A stretch of 64,000 nt of DNA, taken from NCBI RefSeq assembly GCF_000376845.1, contig NZ_AQXY01000028.1, positions 186,001-250,000 on the forward strand, written 5' to 3'. This stretch comes from Thioalkalivibrio sp. ALE14. Its GTDB lineage: Bacteria; Pseudomonadota; Gammaproteobacteria; Ectothiorhodospirales; Ectothiorhodospiraceae. The position numbers and the translations under genes were made by a program. Under the pieces are notes generated by a model that was given only the letters and a program-made list of their open reading frames with translations, ran no database searches and was not told the origin of the DNA. Of this stretch, positions 4,307 to 8,928 are shown in pieces (the first letter of the stretch is position 1; each line of letters begins with the position of its first letter).

Positions 4307-4383
<77 letters not shown>

Positions 4384-4461
4384 TTCAATCAATCGCTTAC
4401 GCGACCCTCGGCACAGCTTCCGCCCTCGATTTCAGTACACGAGTTACCCGGCGTGGACGGG

Positions 4462-5727
4462 TTACCGCCGCTCCACGGCAGTGATGCTGGGCATCCCGGT
4501 CACGCCGGCCACGTCGCACACGTCCCGCCAGAACTCCGCCGCAACCCGGGTCAGGTCTTCGGCCTCCACGAGCATGTAGCGAGGAAACCGCACAGGCGTA
4601 CGGATTTCGGGCGGACTCCTCCCGATGTTGAGAGCGGACCTCGGGTTGAACTCAAGCGAACGCCCAACGTGCTGGGAGCCGGCGTCACTACCGGCGGGGT
4701 TGGCGGTCGCGAATTCTACATCAATCATGAGCTCCGCTCGCCCAGCGCCTGCCTGCTCTCGAAGATCCACTGCGACCTCCGCTACACCCAAGAATTCCCC
4801 AATAACCGATAGTGCGGCGAGCGGGGCCTGGGGCACATCCATCACGGCCAAATCTACGGTGCCGTCCTCGAAAGCCGTGAACGTAACCGAACCGTTCGGC
4901 GCATCGTCCGTTCTTGCCCTGACGCCTCGCAAAAACGGGCGTTGTTTCACCAGTGCGTAATGAAACCCCGTGGACACGGTCTTAGTGGAACCCTCCTCCA
5001 TGTGAATCGTCCACTCAAGCGGCGGCACACCCTGCTTATGCTGGAACAAGCGTGTGGCGTTCTGCTTCAGACTGGGAACCCGGTAAACGGCGCGCGCTGG
5101 TGTTACCGTGATACGGAACCCTACCCCCGGGGGTTCATCGCCTCCACGGTATGCAGGCGGTATCAGTGCTTGGAACGCGGCCCGGCGCGCCTCAAGGCGC
5201 TGCTCCGCATCGTCCGCACGGCGGCGGGTCTCCAGCGTGTGCAGCTGGATGTCGCGCATGTCGAGCGGCTTGGCTTCCTCGCCGCGCCGGACCGTCACGC
5301 GGAAGCGCTGCTTGTCTTTGACGCCGTGGGGCGCTTCTGGGGAAGCGGGCACCCGGGCCACGATCACGCCGCCGTCATCGTTGTACGGAACCGGCCCCAC
5401 TTCGAGCCCCACCGGGTAGGGGTCGATGGTCGATGTGAAGGATCGGCGCAGGCTGTCGGCTACCTTCTCCGCTTCCGGGATCGGGACCACCCCGGTTGCT
5501 TGATTGCCTTCGTCCTTGATACCCAAGACCAACACGCCGCCGTCGGCATTGGCGAACGCCACGACCTCGCCGGCCAGGTCCAGGGCCGCCTTTTGCCACG
5601 TATCGGCCTTGCCCGGCGGTTCCTCCTTGAATTCCAGGTATTGGCTTTCAGGCTCGCCCCGCTGGGGCAGTGCGTCGATGTCTTCCGGGCGCAGCTCCGC
5701 CAGCGGCTTGTTGAACAGCTCGTGCAT
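4462..5727 (-). CDS. AlbA_2 (Schlafen-type) domain ATP-binding protein
   Basis: A 421-residue protein with an N-terminal AlbA_2/Schlafen-like domain: YLEFKEEP near residue 30, then VVAFANADGGVLVLGIKD near 53-70. In this family the domain occurs in transcriptional regulators and in accessory or defence loci. The remaining 250 residues match nothing I recognise. The start at 5727 has a GGAG site eight bases upstream; an in-frame upstream ATG would add 30 residues without such a site. It is divergent from the proteasome-like gene at 5927 and lies directly after the tRNA, so it is probably part of an acquired island. Its function is unknown. Confidence 0.75.
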   Translation of the reverse strand: MHELFNKPLAELRPEDIDALPQRGEPESQYLEFKEEPPGKADTWQKAALDLAGEVVAFANADGGVLVLGIKDEGNQATGVVPIPEAEKVADSLRRSFTSTIDPYPVGLEVGPVPYNDDGGVIVARVPASPEAPHGVKDKQRFRVTVRRGEEAKPLDMRDIQLHTLETRRRADDAEQRLEARRAAFQALIPPAYRGGDEPPGVGFRITVTPARAVYRVPSLKQNATRLFQHKQGVPPLEWTIHMEEGSTKTVSTGFHYALVKQRPFLRGVRARTDDAPNGSVTFTAFEDGTVDLAVMDVPQAPLAALSVIGEFLGVAEVAVDLREQAGAGRAELMIDVEFATANPAGSDAGSQHVGRSLEFNPRSALNIGRSPPEIRTPVRFPRYMLVEAEDLTRVAAEFWRDVCDVAGVTGMPSITAVERR

Positions 5728-5926
5728 GGTCAAATCTCCGGGTTGGCGCTGGATGAGCAACGGCAGCGGTCCGCGTCGCAGCAGTCGAGCGGCAATCCAG
5801 CGCGGAAACCCGACCATTGTACTGCTCGACGCTTCCCGTTCGTCCCCAGCAGCAGAACTTACGTTTAAGGCGATCGCCCCGCTGGTCCATACTGCCCCGC
5901 CAACTGCTGCTTACGGACTGATCTGG

Positions 5927-6757
5927 ATGACGGTTGCCATATCTATCACGGTAAATGATGGGGTCGTCATGGCGGCGGATAGCGCCACGTCCCTCACCGA
6001 CGAAAACAACCAGATAGTCAACGTCTATAACTCAGCCAACAAGATATTCAACCTCCGAAAAGGCTTACCCATCGGCGCGATGACATGGGGAGCGGGCGCT
6101 TTCGGTCCAGCATCGATCGAAACCTTGGCGAAAGACTTTCGCAAGGAAATTTCCGCAGACCGAAGGTTCGACCTCGACTCTCCCGACTACGATTTGGAGA
6201 CTGTTGCCTCTGAGTTCGCGGATTTCCTGTACCAGAATCACTATCAGCCAAACTACGGCGAAATCGGGGAACAACGCCCCCAAACCGGGCTAGTAATCGC
6301 AGGATATTCCCACGGGGCGGCGCTCCCGGAGCGTTGGCAAATCGATTTCGGGTCAGGCTCGGACGGCCCACAAATTCATCAATTATCCGAACCGGGTCAA
6401 TCCGGAATAACCGCTCACGCGCAACCCGAAGCCGTCAACAGGTTCGTCAACGGATTTTCTGTGCAATTGCCGGGACTTCTGCACCGTGCAGGGCTGACAC
6501 AAGAGCAAATAGATGAAATCTGCAACGCAGTTGCTAGGTCAGGACGATGGTTCACTCCCCCGCCGATGCCGATACAGGACACCATCGACCTGGCGCGGTT
6601 TCTCGTTGACATGACCATCGAGTATGTTAGATTCCAACCTGGCGCTCAGTCTGTCGGCGGCCCAGTTGAAGTGGCTGCCGTGACGAAGCACGAAGGCTTC
6701 AAATGGGTTCAACGCAAGCACTATTTCTCTCCGGAACTGAACCCGCCTCACGCATAA
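5927..6757 (+). CDS. Proteasome beta-like Ntn hydrolase (putative)
   Basis: A 276-residue protein whose N-terminus reads MTVAISITVNDGVVMAADS. Removal of Met would expose Thr1. The following GVVMAADS places an Asp at position 17, as in proteasome beta and HslV, and a KIF (Lys38) resembles the catalytic Lys33 region. A glycine-rich MTWGAGAFG segment matches the next conserved proteasome block. The first Met in this frame is the chosen one, which fits an N-terminal nucleophile. The C-terminal half is not recognised. It is neither classical HslV (no HslU nearby) nor clearly Anbu. Base composition is visibly AT-richer than the flanks, suggesting transfer. The peptidase assignment is inferred from motifs only. 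Confidence 0.6.
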   Translation: MTVAISITVNDGVVMAADSATSLTDENNQIVNVYNSANKIFNLRKGLPIGAMTWGAGAFGPASIETLAKDFRKEISADRRFDLDSPDYDLETVASEFADFLYQNHYQPNYGEIGEQRPQTGLVIAGYSHGAALPERWQIDFGSGSDGPQIHQLSEPGQSGITAHAQPEAVNRFVNGFSVQLPGLLHRAGLTQEQIDEICNAVARSGRWFTPPPMPIQDTIDLARFLVDMTIEYVRFQPGAQSVGGPVEVAAVTKHEGFKWVQRKHYFSPELNPPHA

Positions 6758-6778
6758 GCCATTGAAAGGGTTAAGATT

Positions 6779-6964
6779 ATGGACAAAGAACGATCCGGCG
6801 CAGAGCACAATGCCGCGTCCGAATACTGGACCCATAACTCGTGCCCTGAGGAACCCCGCGTCGATTACACACCTATCGACATGAGTACCGTCAGCACCTT
6901 TTACGGAGCAAACGGCACTGTCACGGTGGAGGTCTCGCGGCGCGCGGAACAGCACCCGGAATAA
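6779..6964 (+). CDS. Small protein downstream of the Ntn hydrolase
   Basis: A 61-residue, mostly polar protein with no recognised domain. It starts 21 bases after the proteasome-like gene and has a good AAAGGG ribosome site eight bases before its ATG, so it is probably co-transcribed. The C-terminal half contains a VTVEV stretch and a basic end. It could be a partner, substrate or inhibitor of the upstream enzyme, but nothing in the sequence proves this. Confidence 0.5.
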   Translation: MDKERSGAEHNAASEYWTHNSCPEEPRVDYTPIDMSTVSTFYGANGTVTVEVSRRAEQHPE

Positions 6965-7059
6965 TTCGCGGCTTGCAGCCTGGCCCACTGAACCCCCGGC
7001 AACTGCGCCAGGGGGTTCGGCGTGGTGTCGCAGGCTTGTCCCGCCGCCTCCAACTCCCC

Positions 7060-7542
7060 GTCTCCCCGTCTCCCAGTTCCTCCAGCGTCTGCTCGACCTC
7101 CTGTTCAATAAGGCGCTGCGCCTCGCCTGCCGATTCCACGCCGGTCATCTGAGGCGCAAATTTGGTCGGCATCGACAGGAGCCGCTGCCGGGCGGCCACC
7201 ACGAGTTCCGTCATGGCGCGTTCGACCAGCTCCAACTCGACTAGCCGGCCTTCCGTGGCGTCTGCCTCCAGCTCCGCCTTGCGCCGCTGATGCCGGGCCA
7301 GCTTGGCACGCTCTTGGTTGAGTTCCCATCATCATCCGTCGCAAGGGACCGGGGTCAAACCTTGCCTTTCGCAAGGGACCGGGGTCAGAGGGACCGGGGT
7401 CAAACCTTGCCTTTTGCTCTGCTTCGGCCCTGCGAAATCCTGCTTCGCGCCAGTACACGAAGGTCTCCACCCAATCAGGCCCAGCGGCCAAGCCGATATT
7501 TGCGGCGCAAAGCTGGCCTGAACTGAGCCTGGATCCAGCCAA
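7060..7542 (-). pseudogene. Phage terminase small subunit (Nu1-like) remnant
   Basis: Two separated pieces on the minus strand resemble a phage DNA-packaging (Nu1/terminase small) protein. The upstream piece (about 7418-7542) contains FVYWREAGFRRAEAEQKA. The downstream piece (about 7060-7325) reads ELNQERAKLARHQRRKAELEA, then RLLSMPTKFAPQMTG and a final EQEVEQTLEELG helix, typical of the C-terminal half of this family. A block of short repeats at 7341-7414 sits between them; an in-frame stop follows it, and the DNA-binding N-terminus is absent. It is a decayed prophage trace, not a working gene. Confidence 0.6.
7341..7414. repeat. Tandem short repeats inside the terminase remnant
   Basis: Three direct copies of a unit containing GGGACCGGGGTCA. 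Two of them continue with AACCTTGCCTTT; the middle copy is truncated and followed by AGAG. Full units are about 30 bp. Sequences of this kind commonly accompany REP-associated elements. The array interrupts the terminase-like reading frame. Confidence 0.7.
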
Positions 7543-7584
7543 GCCTGCCCCACCCCCTCAGCAGCACTCCCGCGGAAATCGCGC

Positions 7585-8013
7585 TCAGGACGTCTCGGCG
7601 GTGATGAGGCCTCGCTGGAGGTCGACGGTGATCCGCTCGCCCTCGATGACCGTCGCGCAGGCCAGCAGGAAGATCTCGACGAACTCGTTGCGCTCCTCCT
7701 CCGGCATCTCCGAGGAGGTATTGGAACCATTGAAGGTGCCGAACATGGTGTCGTGGGCGCCGGCCGAGTAGAGGATCAGTCGCTGCATGGCGGCCTGGTC
7801 GTCCGGCGATGGCGCGGCGGCATCCAGGACCGGCTCGTCCAGCTTCTGCTTGATGGTGGAATAGAGATGGAAGAGGTATTCCGCCGCGCTCTGGCGCCCC
7901 CGCCGATCCTGCAGGGTGAAGTCGGCCGAGACCGCCTGGCCACTGCGGGCACGCAGCACGATGTGCTTGGGTTCAGGCTGATCGTCGGCGTACGGGTTCA
8001 GGATGTTGGCCAC
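7585..8013 (-). CDS. Hypothetical protein, 142 aa
   Basis: Unrecognised acidic, apparently cytoplasmic protein with no membrane segment and no cysteine in a metal-binding arrangement. The GTG start at 8013 is supported by a TGGAG site five bases upstream. It lies between the decayed phage gene and nrdJb, 210 bp beyond the nrdJb stop on the same strand, so it could be the last gene of that unit or independent. Base composition matches the chromosome better than the island genes do. Confidence 0.55.
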   Translation of the reverse strand: MANILNPYADDQPEPKHIVLRARSGQAVSADFTLQDRRGRQSAAEYLFHLYSTIKQKLDEPVLDAAAPSPDDQAAMQRLILYSAGAHDTMFGTFNGSNTSSEMPEEERNEFVEIFLLACATVIEGERITVDLQRGLITAETS

Positions 8014-8223: not shown

Positions 8224-8928
8224 CTAGCACTTCGAATAGCCGCAGTCACGACAGGTCGGGCAGCCGTCGATGATTTCGAGGTGGCCATCGCACTGCGGGC
8301 ACAGCGACGAACCCATTGGCCCAGACTGCGGGGAGTCCAAAATAGGAACGTCCGCAGGCCGAGTATTACGAGCCTTGTCGTGGTAGGCGGCCAGGTCGCG
8401 TAGCGGGCGGGGATGGCCGTCCGGGTCGAGGAAGCCGCGGCGCTGGAGGATGTTCTGCAGGGCAAAGGCGATGGCGGCGACCTCGGAAGGGTGATAGAGG
8501 GGTTTCCCGTAGTCGCTGGTGCCGCTGCGGACCGGACCGCGGTCCCAGGTGACCTTGCGCAGGTCGCGCAGGGCGCGGGCGGCATAGCCTCCTCGGGCCG
8601 CCAGCGACAGGCTGCGCATGGTGGCGGAGATCCACTGATAGGACTCGGAGTGCTGCCCGGTGGGCAGGAAGAATTCGATCGGACGCTCGATGGTCACGCG
8701 CTCGCCGCCCACCGTGCCGGAAACGGCCATGAAGCTGACCACCAGGTAGACCGTCTGCGGCCCCTCTTGGGTCCAGTAGCGGACCTTTTCGGTGACCGAC
8801 TCGAGCTCGCCCTCGGGGCGCGACGGGATACGCTTGCCCAGCGGGTTGTCGTCGCCCGCCGGGGCACTCTCCCCGGCCGCCGCATCCGAGCGGCGAAACG
8901 CGATGATGGGCTGATCGATCCGGTGCAT
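8224..8928 (-). CDS. nrdJb: B12-dependent ribonucleotide reductase, C-terminal subunit NrdJb
   Basis: A 234-residue protein equal to the C-terminal part of class II ribonucleotide reductase. It ends in a zinc-ribbon-like cysteine cluster (LCPQC near residue 210, then CPTCRDCGYSKC at the terminus); the terminal cysteines are thought to re-reduce the active site. It starts 19 bp after nrdJa on the same strand, so the two are an operon. The same split into NrdJa and NrdJb is known from Pseudomonas aeruginosa, where both chains are needed for activity. Confidence 0.9.
   Translation of the reverse strand: MHRIDQPIIAFRRSDAAAGESAPAGDDNPLGKRIPSRPEGELESVTEKVRYWTQEGPQTVYLVVSFMAVSGTVGGERVTIERPIEFFLPTGQHSESYQWISATMRSLSLAARGGYAARALRDLRKVTWDRGPVRSGTSDYGKPLYHPSEVAAIAFALQNILQRRGFLDPDGHPRPLRDLAAYHDKARNTRPADVPILDSPQSGPMGSSLCPQCDGHLEIIDGCPTCRDCGYSKC

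Follow-up and report, generated by a model that had tools for sequence, protein, structure and literature searches.

A survey by Fuchs, Alva and Lupas in 2021 (PMC8665760) described 22 new groups of proteasome-like proteins, which came from matches below significance, and the closest described relatives of the protein analysed here are found among its PMI homologues. According to the parts of that paper available to us, propeptides are absent from proteasome-like homologues except for proteasome beta and HslV, and its authors saw nothing in the gene neighbourhoods of the new groups that would point to a particular role. PMI-2 (reference sequence WP_137109689.1) is described there as having an insertion between helices H3 and H4 and no long pore-loop insertion, and PMI-4 as having a further pore-loop insertion and being present in phages. 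On the side of toxin-antitoxin systems, known type II antitoxins are degraded mainly by host Lon or Clp (PMC8165232, available in part), and the TAC module is activated by a lambda tail protein (PMC11980606, likewise available in part).

The window, i.e. the whole stretch of 64,000 nucleotides from Thioalkalivibrio sp. ALE14 that was analysed, carries a gene for a 276-residue protein, P0001 (5927..6757, forward strand), followed by a gene for a 61-residue protein, P0002 (6779..6964, forward strand). An AlphaFold2 model of P0001, with an input of 62 sequences, has a pLDDT of 92.9 and a pTM of 0.90, and all 50 of the 50 matches listed by Foldseek are proteasome entries, including proteasome beta and Anbu. 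By VIA, the model aligns with Anbu at Z 19.9 (207 residues, 3.2 Å), starting with model residue 2 against residue 1 of the Anbu chain, and with yeast beta5, also at Z 19.9 (190 residues, 2.7 Å). This is the proteasome alpha-beta-beta-alpha fold that the original prediction, made from the bare letters of the DNA, had proposed to look for, and P0001 is a true proteasome-family (Ntn) protein.

The same prediction had read a pattern of Thr1, Asp17 and a KIF lysine, with a first Met placed such that its loss would expose the Thr, and both readings hold. The frame begins M-T, so numbered that the equivalent of the nucleophile Thr1 is Thr2 (codon 5930..5932), that of Asp17 is Asp18 (5978..5980), and that of Lys33, the KIF lysine, is Lys39 (6041..6043, all on the forward strand). 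In the 62-sequence alignment, consisting of the window protein and 61 relatives, position 2 is Thr in 54 sequences and Ser in 8, and Asp18 and Lys39 are each present in all 62, so the pattern is not a product of chance. Ser19 is kept in 62 of 62 and Gly55, the oxyanion-hole Gly, in 61 of 62. The family start is conserved directly at M-T/S, and an N-terminal propeptide is absent. P0001 would thus need neither a propeptide nor a dedicated ATPase: removal of the initiator Met would expose Thr1 as the nucleophile. Peptidase activity is predicted from the fold and these residues.

Profile searches, also proposed originally, gave a divided answer. Neither the Pfam Proteasome model PF00227 (E = 0.22, 11.6 bits, below the 22.4 cut-off) nor an archaeal beta profile (E = 0.0011, far under its cut-off) recognises P0001 with significance, and a sequence search of the PDB returned chance RecA matches only, but phrog_5990 matches it at E = 8.7e-33, the best stretch being the first 102 residues. 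P0001 resembles Anbu, and by PMC8665760, as far as available, HslV, in its fold; unlike in those systems, no HslU-like gene was found among the scanned neighbours of its gene, and it is too distant from them for the Pfam model. With the PMI homologues, and PMI-2 in particular, it shares (according to the available parts of PMC8665760) the fold, the Thr/Ser1-Asp17-Lys33 site, the lack of a propeptide, the spread over bacteria and Euryarchaeota and the lack of a known ATPase partner. The idea of a new proteasome-like family must therefore be given up: P0001 fits a known kind and falls within the PMI homologues already described.

Placing it more finely than this is less direct. Going by the group descriptions and taxonomic range in the available parts of PMC8665760, rather than by reference alignments, we infer that the short form found in the window is PMI-2-like. 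Its relatives cover, by record titles compared with Table 1 of that paper, the Proteobacteria, Firmicutes, Actinobacteria, Bacteroidetes, PVC and Euryarchaeota, which matches PMI-2 but does not single it out, since the ranges of other PMI groups, as given there, overlap. The model has extra helices at 181-187 and 192-205, between those at 168-175 and 216-235, which may correspond to the H3/H4 insertion. A longer form of about 400-430 residues, represented by phrog_5990 and found in phages, satellites and plasmids, is probably PMI-4, again going by the group descriptions. The two forms share a similar C-terminal WIxRK motif, and the long form differs in being about 120-160 residues longer in most members and in carrying SKGDGxxWI in most, as against TKHEGFKWI in the short form. 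The short-form signature TKHEGFKW (residues 253-260; 6683..6706, forward strand) is present in 62 of 62 sequences, an invariance that is biased because TKHEGFKW itself served as a scan pattern; finds made without the pattern have the near-matches TKHENFKW (L143) and HEGFRWI (L138).

The P0002 gene had been singled out in the original prediction for its good ribosome site, and its ATG is indeed preceded, at 8 nt, by the Shine-Dalgarno-like AAAGGG (6765..6770, forward strand), as read from the sequence; the same reading found no clear Shine-Dalgarno site upstream of the P0001 gene. GC is 0.546 in the P0001 gene and 0.581 in the P0002 gene compared to 0.659 in the window, in agreement with the claim that the pair is AT-richer than its surroundings, and third codon positions have the highest GC in both genes alike, which is coding-like. 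P0002 has no match in Pfam, NCBIfam, PADLOC or PHROGs and thus stands outside the families known there. The claimed absence of an ATPase partner holds locally, as none of the three genes called from the tRNA-Met upstream to the next conserved gene has an AAA+ domain by Pfam. A by-eye impression of a Nu1-like terminase remnant at 6924-7325 (reverse strand), for which Pfam found no terminase model, is not claimed.

We collected loci of relatives, 69 from genomes, and 9 and 14, overlapping, from viral contigs, and in these a small ORF is often the next gene. A small gene was scored as present if an ORF of 40-145 residues with a Shine-Dalgarno core started between -20 and +40 from the peptidase stop. 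Such a gene lies directly downstream in 54 of 68 relatives (9 named loci being left out as duplicates, as the window or as broken or at an edge, and 2 more for having less than 500 nt downstream), compared with 22 of 256 control genes, some of which are false genes because ORF length was the criterion for calling them (Fisher p = 1.8e-30). Counted differently, 108 short-form loci reduce to 81 distinct ones, 72 of which combine a frame of at least 240 residues with 600 nt or more of downstream sequence. These 72 include the window and also L057, despite a frameshift near its end. A small gene comes next in 57 of these 72 distinct intact loci, made up of 50 of the 63 from unfocused scans, the window itself and 6 of the 8 from focused genome searches. 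By position, the small gene is a recurrent partner of the peptidase, as had been supposed for this locus. A family of methanogen paralogues of about 310 residues (L170-L186), which we take to be possibly connectase, has no small ORF in any of 17 cases under a similar rule, one of them having a 307-residue ORF there.

What recurs is the position, and hardly the sequence. The small proteins evolve fast and resemble one another at the clade level only. In all 14 pairs of small ORFs compared, third codon positions are the most different, by little in some; the pairs share members, are uncorrected for relatedness and were aligned as proteins, a procedure that biases the first two codon positions towards agreement. 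In a tblastn search against 79 loci, P0002 matched nothing but itself at E < 0.3. A Y-x-Y-Q motif, picked after looking, occurs in 10 of 46 small proteins compared to a shuffle mean of 0.15, in a sample that includes some spurious ORFs and a wrong 40-residue frame for the window, and most of the ten carriers form one related set. A PSSM built from 12 Y-x-Y-Q proteins did not recognise P0002 significantly (p = 0.21), nor any of the toxin-linked small proteins tested (none at p < 0.05), and the notion of a shared motif uniting P0002 with other partners was dropped. With no significant match by PSSM or tblastn, P0002 belongs to the set by position and not by sequence. The closest relative of P0001 is only about 50% identical, so that the pair cannot be traced through close orthologues.

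One could also speculate that the 61-residue frame of the window arose by chance or is what is left of a decayed gene, the peptidase acting alone here. The lack of a significant match between P0002 and other partners, its lack of a close orthologue, and the 15 of 72 loci in which no small ORF passes the rule would fit such a view, but the Shine-Dalgarno site, a codon-position GC like that of the P0001 gene, and the small gene that 56 of the 71 remaining distinct intact loci have at the same place argue against it, and we consider it improbable.

A pointer to a function is found one gene further downstream. If a third gene abuts the small gene or overlaps with it, that gene often encodes a toxin. 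In 12 of the 63 distinct intact loci from unfocused scans, about a fifth, a toxin gene of the PIN, ParE/RelE or PemK type is third in line on the same strand. Adding the window and two focused searches, which were centred on toxin-bearing loci and supplied 8 loci, 6 of them with a toxin, the third slot is occupied in 18 of 72 (10 PIN, 6 ParE and 2 PemK), all by tblastn similarity, 200-448 nt downstream of the peptidase and on the same strand. Because the toxin queries were drawn from the same loci, so that self-matches count and other toxin families would be missed, this count shows placement and is not an independent discovery. The sole match of these queries outside the slot is a PemK in L010, on the opposite strand at +1265. 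In the remaining 54 of 72 loci, including the window, no toxin was found by this similarity search. Only 13 of the 18 toxin loci pass the Shine-Dalgarno rule for the small gene, the other small ORFs being read without it. PMC8665760 reports no informative context of this kind; the one seen here consists of a small gene behind the peptidase and of a toxin gene in 18 of 72 loci.

Several of these toxins exceed their Pfam cut-offs, namely PemK in L004 (E = 1.4e-25) and L006 (E = 1e-19), PIN in L025 (E = 8.2e-8) and L142 (E = 3.8e-7), and ParE in L060 (E = 3.5e-6), L163 (E = 5.8e-8) and L166 (E = 1.3e-7). The cut-off is missed by those of L039 and L168 (ParE) and L143 (PIN), and in L123 (the same locus as L047) no Pfam match to ParE was found. 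In an HMM search of 299 genomes centred on an acidobacterium, 7 loci score E < 1e-100; a PIN gene follows in 5 of them (L122 and L140-L143), while the other two, L138 and L139, carry the third gene described below, and no toxin was found in any of the four weaker, near-full-length matches (L144-L147). In a search of 151 genomes centred on a methanogen, full-length short-form loci number 7, and 6 of them (L123, L163, L164 and L166-L168) continue into a ParE-type gene; the sequence of the seventh, L165, stops 587 nt past the peptidase. PIN falls in one clade of the PMI tree, ParE in one and PemK in two places, so that the state changed no fewer than 4 times, with weak support at many of the tree's forks. 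The window's own locus has no toxin match: no toxin gene was found in its operon, and the next genes, at 7585-8013 and 8224-8928, are on the minus strand and belong to no toxin family by Pfam.

Some further frames near the peptidase were noted by eye. YoeB-like frames occur upstream in L024 (753-1019, forward strand) and on the opposite strand after the peptidase in L052 (7127-7644, reverse strand), where a YefM-like frame is also seen outside the third slot; toxins are thus not confined to the slot. A ParE-like frame behind the small gene of L001 was not counted. Two acidobacterial loci and one of Helarchaeota share a third gene with QGDIL and LSxxCDLE motifs (L138:2710-3375; L139:191-880, reverse strand; L002:4123-4695), which has no significant Pfam match, and a fold model of its L138 product has a pLDDT of 33.4. 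In L035 (6846-7885), the peptidase is followed by a 185-residue protein with a GWDGEDAEPI motif and then by a 193-residue protein, neither matched by Pfam, which is possibly another three-gene variant.

How the small gene relates to the toxin bears on what it might do. Among 15 toxin loci, 10 have an overlap of exactly 4 nt between the small gene and the toxin gene, and the small proteins have a median length of 113 residues with a toxin (n = 16) versus 58 without (n = 46; p = 2e-8, with no correction for relatedness), a difference that would be explained by the addition of a toxin-binding part. These features speak against the small protein being an assembly factor or a trans-acting propeptide or activator, with the toxin genes as passengers gained a few times, as it would then be harder to see why three unrelated toxin families share one slot and so often the 4-nt overlap, and why the small proteins are longer beside them. 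The absence of propeptides from homologues other than proteasome beta and HslV (PMC8665760, in the parts available) and the 54 of 72 loci where no toxin was found are in favour of this explanation, which we regard as somewhat unlikely. The toxin linkage is left unexplained if the enzyme were a connectase-like protein ligase or processing enzyme instead of a protease, with the small protein as its dedicated substrate. Such a role is suggested by connectase, a proteasome-family member that is a highly specific protein ligase (PMC8665760, as far as available), and by the short and variable small proteins; we find it improbable.

The long form shows a comparable arrangement on mobile elements. A small CDS is annotated next to it in 6 of 13 phage, satellite and plasmid records; in the other 7, 2 stop at the record end and 5 have no annotated small CDS, unannotated small ORFs of 35, 46 and 55 residues lying behind the long form in 3 of these 5. 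As several phage members adjoin holin or lysozyme genes or head-tail genes, the pair might be a lysis- or morphogenesis-related phage accessory, carried as prophage cargo and without any role in defence or as a toxin-antitoxin system. Its carriers, however, also include satellites, plasmids, IS1595-flanked loci, archaea and a chromosomal island, which together with the toxin linkage makes this explanation unlikely.

Among 131 of the 236 filtered neighbour ORFs, which is the part that was scanned, Pfam identified an IS1595 transposase in 4, and the pair may be IS1595 cargo. Neighbours also match defence models (AriA, AbiLi, HEC-01 and others), transposases and endolysins; as the scan had no control set, an enrichment for defence is not claimed. 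Six loci (L013, L023, L041, L042, L051 and L065) have in common a transposase-like gene that is no more than a few genes away from the peptidase. The matches in L065-L069 are confined to the last 20-35 residues of the family, sometimes with a small ORF or toxin behind, and these are probably decayed or truncated peptidase genes. On the Mesorhizobium plasmid NZ_AP023255.1 (L112), the long-form gene is near genes annotated as a multiubiquitin-domain protein and a ThiF-family adenylyltransferase on the opposite strand, and in the Streptococcus satellite phage Javan421 (L115) it is followed, at a distance of about 1.7 kb, by an annotated RelB/RelE pair. Matches were seen in 51 of the 151 methanogen genomes, many with frames of about 370-450 residues, i.e. 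of long-form size and apart from the paralogues of about 310 residues, and some genomes have two such places (e.g. G858 and G791).

In the window, the pair sits on a tRNA-adjacent island, much as originally described. A tRNA-Met (4307..4383, forward strand, by ARAGORN) lies 1.5 kb upstream of the P0001 gene and forms the left edge of an AT-richer insert of about 3.2 kb (4387..7580), delimited by comparison within the genus. Twelve rpoD loci were fetched, 11 of them other than the window's own. In 6 of these 11 genomes the flanks are only about 75-300 nt apart after the tRNA-Met, which makes 4387-7580 look like an insert in this genome; in one they are about 1 kb apart, and in 4 the right flank is outside the available sequence (in L156 the contig ends after 79 nt). 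The flank match starts at window position 7581, or at 7462 in one of the compared genomes. Near the right edge, at 7335-7410, there are repeated copies of a GGGACCGGGGTCAAACCTTGCC-like sequence, which presumably resemble sequences near REP-associated transposases.

The gene appears to have a patchy distribution around its host. A whole-model match is found in only 1 of 47 genomes of the family, this one, and in a sample of 398 genomes of the phylum the short form occurs here only, 7 others having weaker matches with frames of 407-462 residues (long-form size). Judging from this distribution, the P0001 gene is most likely a sporadic acquisition. The same insert carries a gene for an SLFN AlbA_2 protein (4462..5733, reverse strand; PF04326, E = 2.9e-16), so that the AlbA_2 neighbour that had been pointed out is real; as a linked partner of the peptidase it was rejected, since a tblastn search with this protein matched the window's locus only among the PMI loci compared.

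The suggestion that the pair is perhaps defensive fares less clearly. PADLOC matches neither P0001 nor P0002, nor a long-form member; on the other hand, toxins in the third slot (the 12 of 63 above) and a gene matching the PADLOC dCTPase model (E = 1.1e-95) at the same tRNA-Met in L161 (2751-3900; genome G025, of the same genus and one of the 4 above in which the right flank was out of reach) point towards defence. Given the latter, the tRNA-Met site may, going by its gene content, be a defence hot spot, the genes at this site in L152 and L154 having no PADLOC match. A defence role of the pair is plausible and unproven.

How, then, might the pair work? We tentatively propose, at somewhat short of even chances, that the peptidase is a dedicated one, with the small partner as its target or its restraint, and that its role in three-gene loci is to destroy an antitoxin. 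Tying the activity of the peptidase to its small partner is the simplest model that accommodates both the two-gene and the three-gene form. The peptidase gene comes first in a mobile operon, and the second gene encodes the fast-evolving small protein, which most likely binds the peptidase as inhibitor, substrate or both. In three-gene loci, where a toxin of known family lies directly behind the small gene as in type II toxin-antitoxin systems, the middle protein would be the antitoxin of the toxin behind it, and the peptidase would most likely govern toxin release by destroying the antitoxin when a phage or stress, the trigger that we infer, upsets the complex. This model is drawn by analogy with TAC (higBAC), in which a third gene likewise accompanies the toxin and antitoxin of a type II system and its product acts on the antitoxin; there, however, the third protein is a SecB-like chaperone that protects the antitoxin, whereas here it would be a peptidase, encoded first in the operon (PMC11980606, as far as available). 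In two-gene versions such as that of the window, the absence of a toxin gene behind the pair means that the peptidase would itself be the effector, with the small protein keeping it in check, or would act on a target that is not linked to it.

Taken one step further, the peptidase could be the constant part of a previously undescribed module of peptidase, small protein and optional toxin, which phages, satellites and islands have carried into bacteria and archaea alike, with a proteolytic trigger: infection or stress would lead to loss of the antitoxin or inhibitor, upon which an RNase toxin or the peptidase would shut down the cell. We regard this joint claim as a doubtful but real possibility. 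Among the texts searched, which were available in part, proteasome homologues of this kind were not found tied to a small partner or a toxin operon. The recurrent partner and the toxins in the third slot give these homologues a testable function, regulated proteolysis inside an operon, and, if true, this would amount to a toxin-antitoxin or defence module with its own proteasome-like protease.
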